Source: a virus
Length of the DNA: 26,270 nucleotides
Strand: one strand, 5' to 3'
Virus record (IMG/VR): IMGVR_UViG_3300034374_001723
Coordinates: 1-26,270 of that record
The first letter of the stretch is position 1, and every line of letters begins with the position of its first letter. Positions 4,440 through 17,771 of this stretch are shown here, one piece after another. The notes beneath the pieces are model-generated. The model saw only the letters and a program-made list of their open reading frames with translations, was not told the DNA's origin and did not search any database. The translations under genes and the position numbers were made by a program.

Positions 4440-5128
4440 CATCGCCTCCCATTATGTGGGCACTCAGTTACGACACAGTGTGCTCTACAAAGCCCTGTGG
4501 GTTTAGGATTCCATACGTCATTGTCGTATGATTTTTCCAGTGTAGCGTAGGCAGTTAACCACTTGCGCCACAGTTCTGTTTGGTTTTCTATGGTATATGT
4601 CTCTTTAATGAAAGCCTTACATACCACAAACAACAACCCACATTTCACCTTCTTTATGTCAGGGAAATGTCTGAAGACAGCAAGAGCCATTAGCTCTAGT
4701 TGTCCCTTGTCTGCATATTTAGCAGACTTACCGGTTTTGTAATCTATTACTGTAGCAACGCCGGTTTTTTCGTCAACTATTAATAGATCGGCTACACCCC
4801 TAAACCAAACACCGTTATCAAAGAATCCACACGGTTCTAGCTTTTCAGTCAGCCCCATTTTGTATTCGCAGAGCTTTTCGCCTTTCATACCTTTGAGTTT
4901 GTCTAACGCACTCAAAGCATAGTCAAATCGGGGGTCTAGCTCTTTAACTACACCGCCGACGTAATCTTCTGCGGCCTTGTGAAATTCGTTTCCGTAAAAG
5001 ATAGCTTCGGTTTCAAAGTTCTCCTCGTAATCTTTTACTACCTTCGTGTGGTAATACTTCTTCGGGCACTGATCAAACGTCTTTATGCTACTGAACGACC
5101 ACGCTGGTTTGGTATCCACTCGGTACAC
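4439..5128 (-). CDS. PD-(D/E)XK nuclease, RecB/Cas4-like, with possible Fe-S cysteine quartet
   Basis: 229 aa from a GTG at 5128; a GTG three codons later (5119) has better spacing from GGAG and may be the true start. N-terminus WSFSSIKTFDQCPKKYYHTK is the usual opening of the PDDEXK_1 (RecB C-terminal) family. The catalytic set is visible: H50 in EFHKAAE, D114 in GVADLLIV, D129-Y-K131 in VIDYKTGK and Q143 in KGQLELMA. Cysteines at 21, 214, 218 and 223 (CPKKYY near the start; CRAHCVVTEC at the end) match the split pattern, one Cys early and three late, that holds a 4Fe-4S cluster in AddB and Cas4. Predicted role: DNA end processing in phage recombination or replication. Overlaps the polymerase gene by 46 bases. 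Not a CRISPR Cas4: no cas genes or arrays are present. Confidence 0.85.
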   Translation of the reverse strand: MYRVDTKPAWSFSSIKTFDQCPKKYYHTKVVKDYEENFETEAIFYGNEFHKAAEDYVGGVVKELDPRFDYALSALDKLKGMKGEKLCEYKMGLTEKLEPCGFFDNGVWFRGVADLLIVDEKTGVATVIDYKTGKSAKYADKGQLELMALAVFRHFPDIKKVKCGLLFVVCKAFIKETYTIENQTELWRKWLTAYATLEKSYDNDVWNPKPTGLCRAHCVVTECPHNGRR

Positions 5129-6954
5129 TCTCCGTAGTTTTTGCCGATCTCCACGTCACCACGCACGGGAAGGCCGTTCGCCCACTCCGGTGTGTAACGC
5201 ATGCAGGAGTCCACGTAGATAGCAGCTTCCTCTACCTCCGTGTCTCTGACACAGCATACCACAGAATCGTGTACCGTTAACAAAATAGGGTACCGCTTAG
5301 ATATCATTAACATCTGTTCGGACATCACACAACGTGCTATTCCCTGACACACGTTTTCTATAACTTTACCGCCGTAAATCTTAGTCCAGCCCCGTCTAGT
5401 CTTGTACGTAAACTGAACACCTTTCTCTGTCTCGTCAGCTTTTAGCTGGTTGTAATACATCATCAACCCTGATGGGAGTTGAATAGCGTTGAGATTAGGC
5501 ACCACTTCGAGCACTCCCTTACGTCCAAGTTCTGCGGAGTAGTCTTGGTAGATGCGCATCAGTGCAGTTTGGGCCTGCCGCCATAAGTTAGTAATTGAGT
5601 CGTTCGTGTCCCTGTAGATACGTACAATACGTTCTGCTTCCGCCGCTTCTACGTCAACCCCGAACGTCTTAAGTTGGTCACGGAATCTTACTGCCCCCAT
5701 TCCATATCCGGCTCCGAGGATTGTAGTCTTACCGATGAAGCGTTGGTGGGCAGTAACTTCGGATTCAGGCACACCATAAATAGCCGCTGCCATCTTCTTG
5801 TATACGTCTTCTCCCTTCTCAAAAGCCTCGACCAAATCATCCTGACCGGCTAACCATGCGAGTACACGCGCCTCTATCTGGGCAGAGTCGGCTTCAACCA
5901 GCGTGTATCCTTCCGGTGCTACGATACATGACTTCAAAACTTTAGCGTTCTGACCCCGACTTGGTAGGTTCTGTAGGTTAATCTTGTCTTGACCGCCCCA
6001 TCTGCCGGTGTGTGCTGCGTAGTATTTAATCGGTACAGGTAATGCGCCGCGCAGTGCGATATCAATAAACCTTTCTGTACGTGTTTCCTCTAGCGTACTC
6101 TTAAGTCCTATGCGAGCTGCTACTAACGCTTGCACCTTTGGGTCTTCGTGTTCTTGGAGAGCTTTGAATGCTTCATCGCTTTTAGCAAAAGCAAACGTCT
6201 CTTTACCTGTACGCAAACTTGTTTTGGTTGGAGGGATAACACCTAGTGATTCCAACGCCTTAGCAAACTTAGGGTTGGACATAAGCTCGTCCTTCTCAAT
6301 CCCGCATTCTTCGAGCAAGCGATCTTTTTGAATTTTTAGATTCGACAGGTGGTCTTGTAGTTTATCTATGTCTAACTCAAGCACAGGGTCTATAAACATA
6401 CGCAAGGTCATATCTATAACTTTAAGTTCTGACCTCGGAAACTTGCGCGTAGTCATAAAGATATTAAACAGTTTGTAGGTTAGCTCTACATCTTGGATAC
6501 AGTAATCCCCATACCGTTCTAATTCGACATCGCTGAAATCTTCGCGGCGTTTGTCCAACGCATGAATTACTTCGTCTCCTTTCTCTCCGACATCGTACAT
6601 CTCTGAAAGTTTTTTAAGTGACGCACCGGCATCAACACCGTGTATTGCACGCGCCATGCAAAGAGTATCAAGGTATAAACGAGGGTGAATATCAAGCAAC
6701 CAACTAAGAATAGCGCCGTCAAACAAAGTGTTATGAGCAAGTACAGCACACTCTTCCCAGTTATAGTTGTCATGTAAGTACCTCTTCAGGTCGCTGAATG
6801 CTCCACTCAACCATACTGTCTCGCCATCATTTACTTTTACACTCACACCAATGATTTCAAACTCAGGACTACGAATGTACTGTTCTGTAGTTAGTTTAGT
6901 TAGCGAGAACGTTTTTGAGTAATAGGTCTCAAAGTCTACGGTTATGACATCCAC
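5083..6954 (-). CDS. Family A DNA polymerase with 3'-5' exonuclease domain
   Basis: 623 aa, starting with GTG at 6954 that overlaps the upstream TAG by one base. Exonuclease domain: Exo I VDFETY (D7, E9), Exo II AHNTLFDG (N75, D79), Exo III YGDYCIQD (Y151, D155). Polymerase domain: motif A LVEADSAQIEARVLA (D356), motif B RFIGKTTILGAGYG (R405, K409, Y417), motif C LTVHDSVV near the C-terminus. No N-terminal 5' nuclease domain; the size suits phage replicative enzymes of the T7/PolA type. Role: replicative synthesis with proofreading. The residue four after the motif B lysine (equivalent to E. coli Phe762, T7 Tyr526) is Leu413. Followed by the overlapping RecB-like nuclease. Confidence 0.96.
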   Translation of the reverse strand: MDVITVDFETYYSKTFSLTKLTTEQYIRSPEFEIIGVSVKVNDGETVWLSGAFSDLKRYLHDNYNWEECAVLAHNTLFDGAILSWLLDIHPRLYLDTLCMARAIHGVDAGASLKKLSEMYDVGEKGDEVIHALDKRREDFSDVELERYGDYCIQDVELTYKLFNIFMTTRKFPRSELKVIDMTLRMFIDPVLELDIDKLQDHLSNLKIQKDRLLEECGIEKDELMSNPKFAKALESLGVIPPTKTSLRTGKETFAFAKSDEAFKALQEHEDPKVQALVAARIGLKSTLEETRTERFIDIALRGALPVPIKYYAAHTGRWGGQDKINLQNLPSRGQNAKVLKSCIVAPEGYTLVEADSAQIEARVLAWLAGQDDLVEAFEKGEDVYKKMAAAIYGVPESEVTAHQRFIGKTTILGAGYGMGAVRFRDQLKTFGVDVEAAEAERIVRIYRDTNDSITNLWRQAQTALMRIYQDYSAELGRKGVLEVVPNLNAIQLPSGLMMYYNQLKADETEKGVQFTYKTRRGWTKIYGGKVIENVCQGIARCVMSEQMLMISKRYPILLTVHDSVVCCVRDTEVEEAAIYVDSCMRYTPEWANGLPVRGDVEIGKNYGECTEWIPNQRGRSVA

Positions 6955-9322: not shown

Positions 9323-10308
9323 TCTGCATCACTCCCACCTTTTAGTCTATAGTCTTTCTCCACAAATCCCTCTTTGTTCCCATTAACATACGTTGAATTA
9401 ATCCACACTTTCTTCCCGTTCTGGTACGTACGGATATGTCCTCGTCTCATGTGGCTACGTTTCGCACCGCCTCCACCGCCGTTGCCTCCACCCAAGTACG
9501 GGCTATCCCATACCTCACCGCCGATAGACAGAACCTTGTAGTCATAATTAGCTGTCTCACCTCTCTTGGCATGTTTCTTAGCAAGTTTAGGAGGGACATT
9601 TACAGGTACTTGTTTACAGTCGTTTATCTCTAGCAGATTGCAAAGCGTAGCCATTGACATAAAGTCATCTTGGTAGTCTGACAGAATTTCCCCTATTTCT
9701 TCTTGGCTATTCCCATGATCCACAAGATATTCAATAAAATTGACTGTATGGGGGTCGGGGTTCCAATCAAGTCCATATCCCATAGCTCTATAAGCGCCAA
9801 TATCTTCAGGCTTAAAACTAAATTTGCAGAACGCTGGTTGGCACGCCCATACTTTAAGATGGGGGGCATACAATACTGACGCACATCTTATGTCTAAATC
9901 TTCCCCCTCTTCTTGTTTCTGGACAAGAATAGAAATTTTATGGGTGTCTATTTTTTCGGGTGCATCTGGTACTTTTATTCTTGTTGCGCCTTTCGTGTCG
10001 ATACCATCTGCCTGATTATTTATATGAGTAGTACTTAGCAGAATCGTAATTGGGTACGGCAATCGAAATGGCATGTACTCTTTACCATCAAAAGGAGGAT
10101 GTAAATCTTTATCACCAATTATGTTTCTTACATCTGGTACATAAAACTTCATGCCCCTCTCAATAGTTTCAGCTAAGTAGTTCATTGAGTGGGCGTGTTG
10201 CGGCATTTCGTTTTCGAGAAGCACCCCAACCGCATTACGCATATCACGTACCGCATCCTTAAACTTACCCCAGTGCGGGATACCTCTAACTGTCTGTTGT
10301 TTCTTCAT
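9319..10308 (-). CDS. 329-aa phage protein with glycine-rich hinge and RSHMRRGHIR C-terminal motif, function unknown
   Basis: The ATG at 10308 is preceded by AGGAG at seven bases; the frame stays open to an ATG at 10371, but that region is inside a set of hairpins and has no ribosome site. Residues 1-60 are basic and helical; about 100-180 are beta-rich with LPYPITILLSTTH and KISILVQKQEE; about 190-260 are helical with acidic stretches. Then a run GGGNGGGGG, and RSHMRRGHIRTYQNGKKVWI with an ending N-x-x-x-x-G-x-V-x-K-x-Y. The S-H-x-R-R-G-H-x-R motif followed by K-x-x-W-I is common at the ends of uncharacterised phage and plasmid proteins. No enzyme motif seen. The long structured gap just upstream may control it. 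Confidence 0.6.
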   Translation of the reverse strand: MKKQQTVRGIPHWGKFKDAVRDMRNAVGVLLENEMPQHAHSMNYLAETIERGMKFYVPDVRNIIGDKDLHPPFDGKEYMPFRLPYPITILLSTTHINNQADGIDTKGATRIKVPDAPEKIDTHKISILVQKQEEGEDLDIRCASVLYAPHLKVWACQPAFCKFSFKPEDIGAYRAMGYGLDWNPDPHTVNFIEYLVDHGNSQEEIGEILSDYQDDFMSMATLCNLLEINDCKQVPVNVPPKLAKKHAKRGETANYDYKVLSIGGEVWDSPYLGGGNGGGGGAKRSHMRRGHIRTYQNGKKVWINSTYVNGNKEGFVEKDYRLKGGSDAE

Positions 10309-10340
10309 TCTCGTTCTCCTAGTTAAAAGAAATAAGTTTG

Positions 10341-10569
10341 CGTGAGTTCGTACAGAAATCCCCCCACCCATTCAGGGTTCATGCTGTACTTGCTCACGAC
10401 TAACCGTAGCGTGGCTTACTCGGTGCATGCACAGGGTTGGAGTGCTCTCATGAGGCATTTAAGCCCTGTCATGCACTGCGGATGTTTTCGGCCGGAATGA
10501 TACAAACACACCTACCCACCGTCCGCTGGGGTATGGGGGAGTAAACAAATCAACTAAAAAACCTCCCCC
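10341..10569 (-). ncRNA. Structured intergenic element with four consecutive hairpins (candidate leader RNA)
   Basis: The only sizeable gap inside the leftward block (10309-10579). Inverted repeats in transcript order: GGGGGAG/CTCCCCC (10563-10569 with 10535-10541, 21-nt loop); GCGGA/TCCGC (10522-10526 with 10478-10482); CATGCAC/CCCTGT arms (10464-10476 with 10423-10436, 13 pairs with one bulged base at 10430, containing an inner CTCATGAG palindrome); and CTCACG plus CTGTAC arms (10384-10398 with 10341-10355, 12 pairs around a 3x3 internal loop). The second and third are one base apart. The last ends 33 bases before the start of the 329-aa gene. No T-run, so not a simple terminator; no tRNA signature or known riboswitch core recognised. 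Could be a cis-regulatory leader, a processed RNA or a DNA structure. Confidence 0.5.
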
Positions 10570-10579
10570 TACTAAGAAC

Positions 10580-10876
10580 CTAAAACGACAGCAGTACCTC
10601 CCGCACGCTATCTATATTGTCTTCATTTACTACCCACCCCACCCCGGCAGCCTTAGCTATATTTTCCAGTTCACGTTTCTGTAAAGCAGTCGTAGTGTTC
10701 TTGCCTGCTTTACACTCAATAGCGAAAAACTTTCCTTTGTAGCACCCGACTATATCCGGCACACCCGAACGTCCGTAGCCACCTGTGGCTGGAAAGAAGT
10801 AATAAACATCTTCACCCAACGTCTTCAGTTGTTTCACTATCTGATTCTTTACTCGTTTCTCCGGCGTCATCGCCAT
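10580..10876 (-). CDS. VRR-NUC domain nuclease (PD-(D/E)XK, resolvase-like)
   Basis: 98 aa from the ATG at 10876, nine bases after GGAG; ATGs at 10885 and 10870 are alternatives. The whole protein is one domain: TPEKRVKNQIVKQLK helix, YYFFPATGGYGRSGVPDIVG with the catalytic Asp, KGKFFAIECKAG with the E-x-K pair, then TTALQKRELENIAKAAGV and a final strand WVVNEDN. This is the VRR-NUC fold, whose standalone phage members cleave branched DNA such as Holliday junctions. It overlaps the upstream gene by 65 bases and is last before the structured gap. It probably works with the SNF2 helicase at 2277; the two families often co-occur in phages. Confidence 0.9.
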   Translation of the reverse strand: MAMTPEKRVKNQIVKQLKTLGEDVYYFFPATGGYGRSGVPDIVGCYKGKFFAIECKAGKNTTTALQKRELENIAKAAGVGWVVNEDNIDSVREVLLSF

Positions 10877-11144
10877 CAGTTTCATCTCCGTTCAAATGAA
10901 TCCAAAACACGTTCTCTTGCATCCGTCTACCGATGTTATCTATGTACTTGCTCGGTGACTTGTGCGGCATTACTCTCAATACTGCTACCTTACGTTGTAC
11001 CCACAAAGGTACCTTGTCTGCGGGAATTGTATAAGGGCGACTTATGTTGACACCTCGTATGGTCATCTCCATAAGACCGAATGACTGCAAGACAACAAAG
11101 TCGCCCTTAAGTTCCACACGTAGTACGGCTTTATCAATTCTCAT
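10812..11144 (-). CDS. 110-aa small protein with acidic tail, function unknown
   Basis: ATG at 11144 with GGAG nine bases upstream, overlapping the previous stop by eleven bases. The N-terminal 60 residues are beta-rich (AVLRVELKGDFVVLQSFGLM, EMTIRGVNISRPYTIPAD) with an SH3-like or OB-like feel. A WVQRKVAVLRVM segment follows, and the last 30 residues are strongly acidic (NGDETDGDDAGETSKESDSE), an end like that of DNA mimics or SSB-type proteins. No family recognised. The long overlap with the nuclease means the acidic tail shares sequence with the nuclease N-terminus and may partly be a by-product of that overlap. Confidence 0.55.
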   Translation of the reverse strand: MRIDKAVLRVELKGDFVVLQSFGLMEMTIRGVNISRPYTIPADKVPLWVQRKVAVLRVMPHKSPSKYIDNIGRRMQENVFWIHLNGDETDGDDAGETSKESDSETTEDVG

Positions 11145-17561: not shown

Positions 17562-17593
17562 AAAAAAAAGGGCAGACTCCGAAGAGCCTGCCC
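17562..17593 (-). terminator. Rho-independent terminator with UUCG loop, after the 40-aa gene
   Basis: On the minus strand: GGGCAG-G-CTC-TTCG-GAG-T-CTGCCC (17593 to 17570) followed by eight T. One mismatch in the stem; AAA/TTT extend it on both sides, so it may also work rightward. Near copy of the hairpin at 17743-17764. It is eight bases beyond the stop of the 40-aa gene. Confidence 0.85.
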
Positions 17594-17600
17594 TTTGGGT

Positions 17601-17735: not shown

Positions 17736-17764
17736 AAAAAGAGGCAGGCTCCGAAGAGCCTGCC
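17736..17764 (-). terminator. Rho-independent terminator with UUCG loop, after the 220-aa gene
   Basis: Minus strand GGCAGGCTC-TTCG-GAGCCTGCC (17764 to 17743), a perfect 9-pair stem with an exceptionally stable C(UUCG)G loop, then TCTTTTT. It starts eight bases after the stop at 17772. The following TCTGGAG supplies the ribosome site of the 40-aa gene, so terminator and next gene are directly joined. Confidence 0.85.
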
Positions 17765-17771
17765 CGATAGA

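Follow-up and report, generated by a model that had tools for sequence, protein, structure and literature searches.

The HK022 put RNA raises read-through of terminators in cis and needs no phage proteins to do so; there are two such sites, one per early operon, close to the early promoters. In phage lambda, the Q/pR' late leader, with its terminator tR', lies between Q and the lysis genes. A third phage RNA, Proteo-phage-1 (Rfam RF03044), is classed by Rfam as 'Gene; sRNA', and its 82-position model describes a hairpin, then a stem with an AGYNGN loop, and an AAaAACa strand followed by a CCGGCAG-like segment complementary to that loop. No paper naming Proteo-phage-1 or RF03044 was found in the literature searched, a scope that leaves the founding paper of the class outside.

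A structured RNA that resembles this class fills a gap in the leftward operon of a 26,270-base virus record (IMG/VR record IMGVR_UViG_3300034374_001723, positions 1 to 26,270; hereafter the window), between the stop codon of a VRR-NUC/Hjc-like nuclease gene at 10580 and the likely start of a 329-aa gene, ATG 10308, which is preceded by AGGAGAA (Table 1). The 329-aa product has no match in Pfam or PHROG. The nearest isolates of the window's portal-like protein are freshwater cyanophage-named records, pelagiphages and roseophages, all below 60% identity, and the phage is probably marine. The element sits ~8 kb inside the leftward block. An earlier, sequence-only reading of this locus took the gap to be the only large one of that block, which is correct below ~16.4 kb; farther up, however, no minus-strand ORF of at least 100 aa is found between 16401 and 17772. 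Two strong, near-alike intrinsic terminators stand in tandem at window positions 17742-17765 and 17567-17596 (minus strand), directly after the first leftward gene and upstream of the remaining operon.

Table 1. Coordinates of the RNA element, its parts and the flanking genes in the window (arms are given 5' to 3' on the minus strand; paired fractions and copy counts refer to the relatives).
Feature	Position	Strand	Description
Structured RNA element, whole	10340..10569	-	5' end 10569, 3' CACGC at 10340; ~230 nt
P0 hairpin	10535..10569	-	GGGGGAG 10569-10563 with CUCCCCC 10541-10535; 81% + 71% of cells paired
Pseudoknot stem S1	10513..10533	-	UACCC 10533-10529 with GGGUA 10517-10513; 96.1% paired
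Pseudoknot stem S2	10478..10526	-	GCGGA 10526-10522 with UCCGC 10482-10478; 90.6% paired
A-rich strand AAAACA, before S2 3' arm	10483..10488	-	Invariant, 36/36 copies
P3 long hairpin	10423..10476	-	GUGCAUG 10476-10470 with CAUGCAC 10429-10423; CAGGG 10468-10464 with CCCUG 10436-10432
CUCC in P3 internal loop	10439..10442	-	Rich in pyrimidines; most copies read UUCC or CUCC
P4 hairpin	10402..10416	-	AGCC/GGUU (10416-10413/10405-10402); 7-nt loop ACGCUAC, family pattern NCGNNAM
P5 hairpin	10341..10398	-	CGUGAG 10398-10393 with CUCACG 10346-10341; GUACAG 10389-10384 with CUGUAC 10355-10350
CUGAAURGGUGG inside P5	10364..10375	-	Conserved; long form only
Upstream gene, 101 aa, VRR-NUC/Hjc-like nuclease	10580..10885	-	Pfam Hjc E 7e-6, phrog_93 E 9e-18; outside RNA
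Downstream gene, 329 aa	9319..10308	-	Replaced by other genes in relatives; outside RNA

Comparative analysis shows that the gap encodes a conserved structured RNA on the minus strand, composed of the P0 hairpin, an H-type pseudoknot core formed by S1 and S2, the long hairpin P3, P4 with its NCGNNAM loop, and P5. The sequence-only reading had placed four hairpins at 10341-10569, which is nearly exact: its 7-pair arm is P0, its bulged 13-pair arm corresponds to P3 (7 + 5 pairs), and P5 (6 + 6 pairs) accounts for its 12-pair arm, interrupted by a 3x3 loop. The 5-pair hairpin is likewise a real pairing but belongs to the pseudoknot, of which it is one strand pair (S2), while S1 and P4 escaped notice. 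A 28-codon frame said to start at 10464 meets a stop there and starts at 10458; its TGAATG end is present but occurs in only 18 of 36 copies, and neither the frame nor the longer start form of the downstream gene is conserved.

Loci were gathered via polymerase homology and via the 329-aa gene, and the element was sought by tblastn and nhmmer. Of the 33 loci in which the VRR-NUC gene is present, 28 have the element; many of these loci are near-duplicates, and one (L084) is the window itself. The five that lack it (L077-L079, L081 and L082) belong to the most distant loci. Further copies came from scanning viral contigs with two patterns, which gave at least 120 matches and 49 stretches; 89 good matches, among the matches listed, gave 43 after dereplication, and the 36 long-form copies were aligned by sequence alone, the seven with another 3' domain being left out. 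Pattern matches in the genome collection were mostly chance: full S2 was found in 8 of 35 dereplicated matches, and L246, among these eight, was judged chance and dropped. Trained on 59 sequences, the window copy among them, a core model finds one strong copy in the window, at 51.8 bits for a sequence of its own training set; the next scores 6.6. The same model finds no match at E ≤ 0.01 in ten isolates related to the window phage; weak matches in CRP-902, HTVC023P and CRP-901 were inspected and judged chance. Searches of phages by blastn with the window gap and the L026 copy as queries returned chance-level matches only.

The comparative data, rather than folding energy, prove the structure. 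Across the 36 diverged copies, 85.0% of the cells of the named structure form standard pairs vs 74.6% in column shuffles, none of 500 of which was as high; when the partners are slid by 1-3 columns, 31-47% are paired, a control over which the structure is favored by its derivation from one aligned sequence. Double changes occur in 29 of 45 pairs, with a covariation score of 0.347 vs 0.179. In this alignment, P0 shows double changes at 4 pairs (in two helix parts), and P3, 87% and 88% paired, shows them in 11 of 12 pairs and keeps an invariant UG in its 3' internal loop. P4 is 100% paired through G-C, A-U and G-U pairs. The outer part of P5 is supported (85.7% paired); the alignment gives no support to the inner part (P5b, 58.2% paired), for which pairing is not claimed. 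Because the core set excluded cores with fewer than four S2 pairs, the unselected test is that of 67 dereplicated pattern matches, in which two freely varying S2 pairs are each kept in 66, against shuffled means of 37.5 and 51.8, and the S1 positions are kept in 66 and 62; a further comparative test puts S2 pairing at 99.3%. Arms that change in relatives without compensating bases, which the sequence-only reading had offered as grounds for giving up its proposal, were thus looked for, and the structure passed. Its other check, folding against shuffles, gives a modest excess on the functional minus strand (z -1.70; 13 of 200 shuffles equally good) and a larger one on the opposite strand (z -3.68; 0 of 200); single-sequence folding understates the element, since nested folding is unable to score the pseudoknot.

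The strand on which selection acts is indicated by the G-U cells, which on the sense strand outnumber A-C cells by 160 to 39 (42 to 8 in the core set): it is the RNA of the minus strand, on which the operon also lies, that is under selection. A DNA structure, such as the replication origin or packaging site suggested at first, could explain why replication genes (PolA, VRR-NUC, SSB) often adjoin the element, but G-U would not then be kept on one strand only, and relatives are also found beside lysis and head genes; this explanation is very improbable.

RF03044 was first indicated by cmscan of the pattern loci. Window 10200-10700 yields nothing real against Rfam at the gathering cut-off or at E ≤ 10, RF03044 included, and G001, a 36-kb record with the same element, has no RF03044 match at E ≤ 1. 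The connection runs through intermediates: L057, obtained by polA homology and not by pattern, carries an element syntenic with the window copy (nhmmer E 1e-41) and scores 40.3 bits against RF03044, just below the gathering cut-off of 42, and L052 scores 17.5 bits; the L096 record reaches 65.3 bits, the L115 record (G005) 64.7 and the second copy in the latter 64.3. The features of the model recur in the window, its hairpin and AGYNGN-loop stem as P0 and S1 with AGCGGA, its A-rich strand and loop-complementary segment as AAAACA-UCCGCAG, so that both are phage RNAs in which P0 is followed by a GYNGN/NCNGC pseudoknot with an AAAACA strand. By contrast, the P3, P4 and P5 domains of the window copy are absent from the model, which covers only P0 and the pseudoknot. 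Given the synteny and score of L057, the window element is almost certainly a long, diverged relative of RF03044, extended beyond it and, at the curated cut-off, outside its membership. The early suggestion of a new structured leader or processed ncRNA is therefore borne out by the comparative tests as far as a conserved structured RNA goes, but the RNA is not wholly new, its 5' module being related to RF03044. New here are the long form, the supported pseudoknot, the 3' modules and the contexts, for which we found no earlier description, the founding paper (whether or not it draws the pseudoknot) aside.

The neighbors of the long form vary. The upstream gene encodes a VRR-NUC protein in 20 of 35 copies and a family A DNA polymerase, recognized by its C-terminus, in 9 of 35; the 608-aa polymerase of the short-form locus L137 matches DNA_pol_A. 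The polymerase at L120:3229-5904 has 891 aa vs ~610 aa in relatives, and its central stretch, matching the phrog_93 endonuclease at 428-602, is possibly an intein or homing insertion. Downstream, 17 gene families are found among the 36 copies, and the element is thus no leader of any single gene: a leader role for the 329-aa gene in particular is dismissed, and a metabolite riboswitch or gene-specific leader, to which the pseudoknot might point because pseudoknots are frequent among riboswitches, has next to no probability where the downstream gene is not constant. A 15-nt segment of the RNA (window 10382-10396) is perfectly complementary to the polymerase mRNA (gene 5083-6954, near its start; L006:10207-10221, E 0.78), probably by chance, as other copies (e.g., L023) retain the polymerase site and not the RNA side.

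Several copies start 1-7 nt past the stop codon of the upstream polymerase gene and end near the ribosome-binding site of the next gene; the element is therefore probably co-transcribed in these phages. It leaves little room for a promoter of its own, and we infer that it is read within the leftward replication operon. Such compact placement between cistrons of long operons would also suit an element that acts in cis on how the mRNA is processed, stabilized or translated, e.g., an RNase site or an exonuclease block, but the pseudoknot, the invariant AAAACA and the loop conservation exceed the needs of a simple RNase site. Nor does the CUCC of P3 pair in cis with the ribosome-binding site: the mean energy is -5.74 kcal/mol with the copy's own downstream region and -6.00 with those of other copies, matched pairs being no better than shuffled ones. 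An intercistronic element of this type is unlikely.

Other relatives lie elsewhere in phage genomes. In the D3-like phages PAJU2 and PMG1 the element belongs to the left early operon and precedes the Erf and exonuclease genes in the former and an exonuclease gene in the latter (a second weak PMG1 match falls within a coding gene and was discarded), and in a Shimia genome a copy precedes terS. The prophage sample, 30 of the 43 listed RF03044 matches (35 of 298 genomes), comes from Pseudomonadaceae, the family of a Stutzerimonas genome. Twelve of these 30 copies follow a gene of phrog_3373 (6) or phrog_3412 (6), and a holin match lies within 1.5 kb downstream of 13; together, 18 of 30 are at a Q-like/holin junction, defined by the upstream phrog gene or the downstream holin match. 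Both families carry the PHROG label 'unknown function'; some phrog_3373 members also match the Q-like phrog_304, and one further member has a sub-threshold match to Pfam Phage_antiter_Q, while phrog_3412 is linked to Q by position alone. The two share the slot from ninG to holin (L313, L314 and similar loci), and phrog_3412 may be another antiterminator family. An intrinsic terminator is found within 200 nt downstream in 15 of 30 copies, vs 3 of 30 upstream and 0.4 in shuffles. The remaining 12 copies lack both Q-like gene and holin match, and six of them follow head genes.

The 3' modules differ between phage groups, and RF03044 covers the 5' module only. A P4 hairpin with a CGNNA loop lies 3' of the core in 45 of 73 loci, most of which belong to the family that defined P4, against 6 of 72 in the downstream control and 3.2 in shuffles; the 28 core-bearing loci without it include most RF03044-like copies. 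Beyond the Rfam model, 18 of the 30 prophage copies (L312-L341) have a hairpin with a GGAAAGA-like loop: it is present in all 18 copies at a Q-like/holin junction as defined above and in 0 of the 12 others. The window fragment has one copy, as do 15 of 15 records searched by pattern and nearly all records. Only G005 has two, diverged Proteo-phage-1 copies on opposite strands (L115; L307 = G005:27476-27555), the second of which, by eye, continues beyond the Rfam model into a CUCC-bearing P3 and a P4 hairpin whose loop is GCGUAAC.

These locations suggest that the element may act on transcription. Our preferred, though tentative, reading, somewhat short of an even chance, is a cis-acting antitermination or anti-polarity signal that modifies the elongation complex. 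The nascent RNA would fold while leaving RNA polymerase; the pseudoknot and the group-specific 3' hairpins would bind to the elongation complex, either directly or through a factor attached to it; and the bound complex would carry transcription of a long operon past terminators or Rho, by analogy with the HK022 put RNA or the late leader that Q controls in lambdoid phages. Sequence comparison supports such a signal through the covariation of all main helices, pseudoknot included, the strand test and the independence from the downstream gene, and so do the probable co-transcription, the Q-like/holin junctions, the downstream terminators, the GGAAAGA hairpin, the terS and D3-like left early operon positions and the two copies in G005. 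Against it count the near-universal single copy, the 12 of 30 prophage copies that lack both Q-like gene and holin, the 'unknown function' label of phrog_3373 and phrog_3412, and the place of the window copy, ~8 kb into the leftward block with no strong minus-strand terminator after it.

Nearly as likely is a trans-acting phage sRNA directed at a conserved host target. It would be excised from the operon transcript or, in the case of prophages, have a promoter and terminator of its own; Shine-Dalgarno sequences are possible partners of its CUCC loop, which is rich in pyrimidines. One copy per phage as a rule, the varying neighbors and the Rfam entry type agree with an sRNA, and the terminator that follows half of the prophage copies could mark where a separately made small RNA ends. 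The two copies in G005 do not agree with it, nor do the copies that start so close to a stop codon as to leave no space for a promoter; the CUCC energies given above also speak against it, as far as cis pairing goes.

The comparison with known cis-acting systems is mixed. Like put in its general features, the element is a structured RNA in phage operons, its cis action on the elongation complex being our proposal; two copies, the number typical of put, are found in G005 only. The prophage copies are at a junction equivalent to that of the lambda Q late leader in 18 of 30 cases and precede a terminator in 15, whereas the window copy lies in the early/replication operon of a probably marine phage, between VRR-NUC and the 329-aa gene, with no adjacent Q-like gene. 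No strong terminator was found 3' of it on the minus strand of the window. The gap itself lacks a GC-rich stem followed by a T-run, the sole candidate being a weak 5-pair site at 10377-10362, so that its hairpins are, as first noted, not ordinary terminators. Consequently, only an anti-Rho role would fit a cis-acting signal there.

A broader extension of the antitermination reading is rather doubtful: Proteo-phage-1 and the long form would make up one modular superfamily of RNA antiterminators, in which the shared pseudoknot docks on host RNA polymerase and exchangeable 3' modules set the signal that is passed. If so, NCGNNAM-loop P4 and P5 would serve the replication operons of marine phages, and the GGAAAGA hairpin with its terminator the Q/lysis junctions, and RNA-based antitermination would be a widespread class beyond the lambdoid put RNA. 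The orphan class itself gains a strongly covarying pseudoknot, its missing 3' domains and a wide reach into environmental phages, and where its function stood as unknown, the context of Q-like gene, element, terminator and holin now offers an idea on how phages control transcription that can be tested directly. As the core is carried by the isolated Pseudomonas aeruginosa phages PAJU2 and PMG1, such tests need no metagenomic phage.
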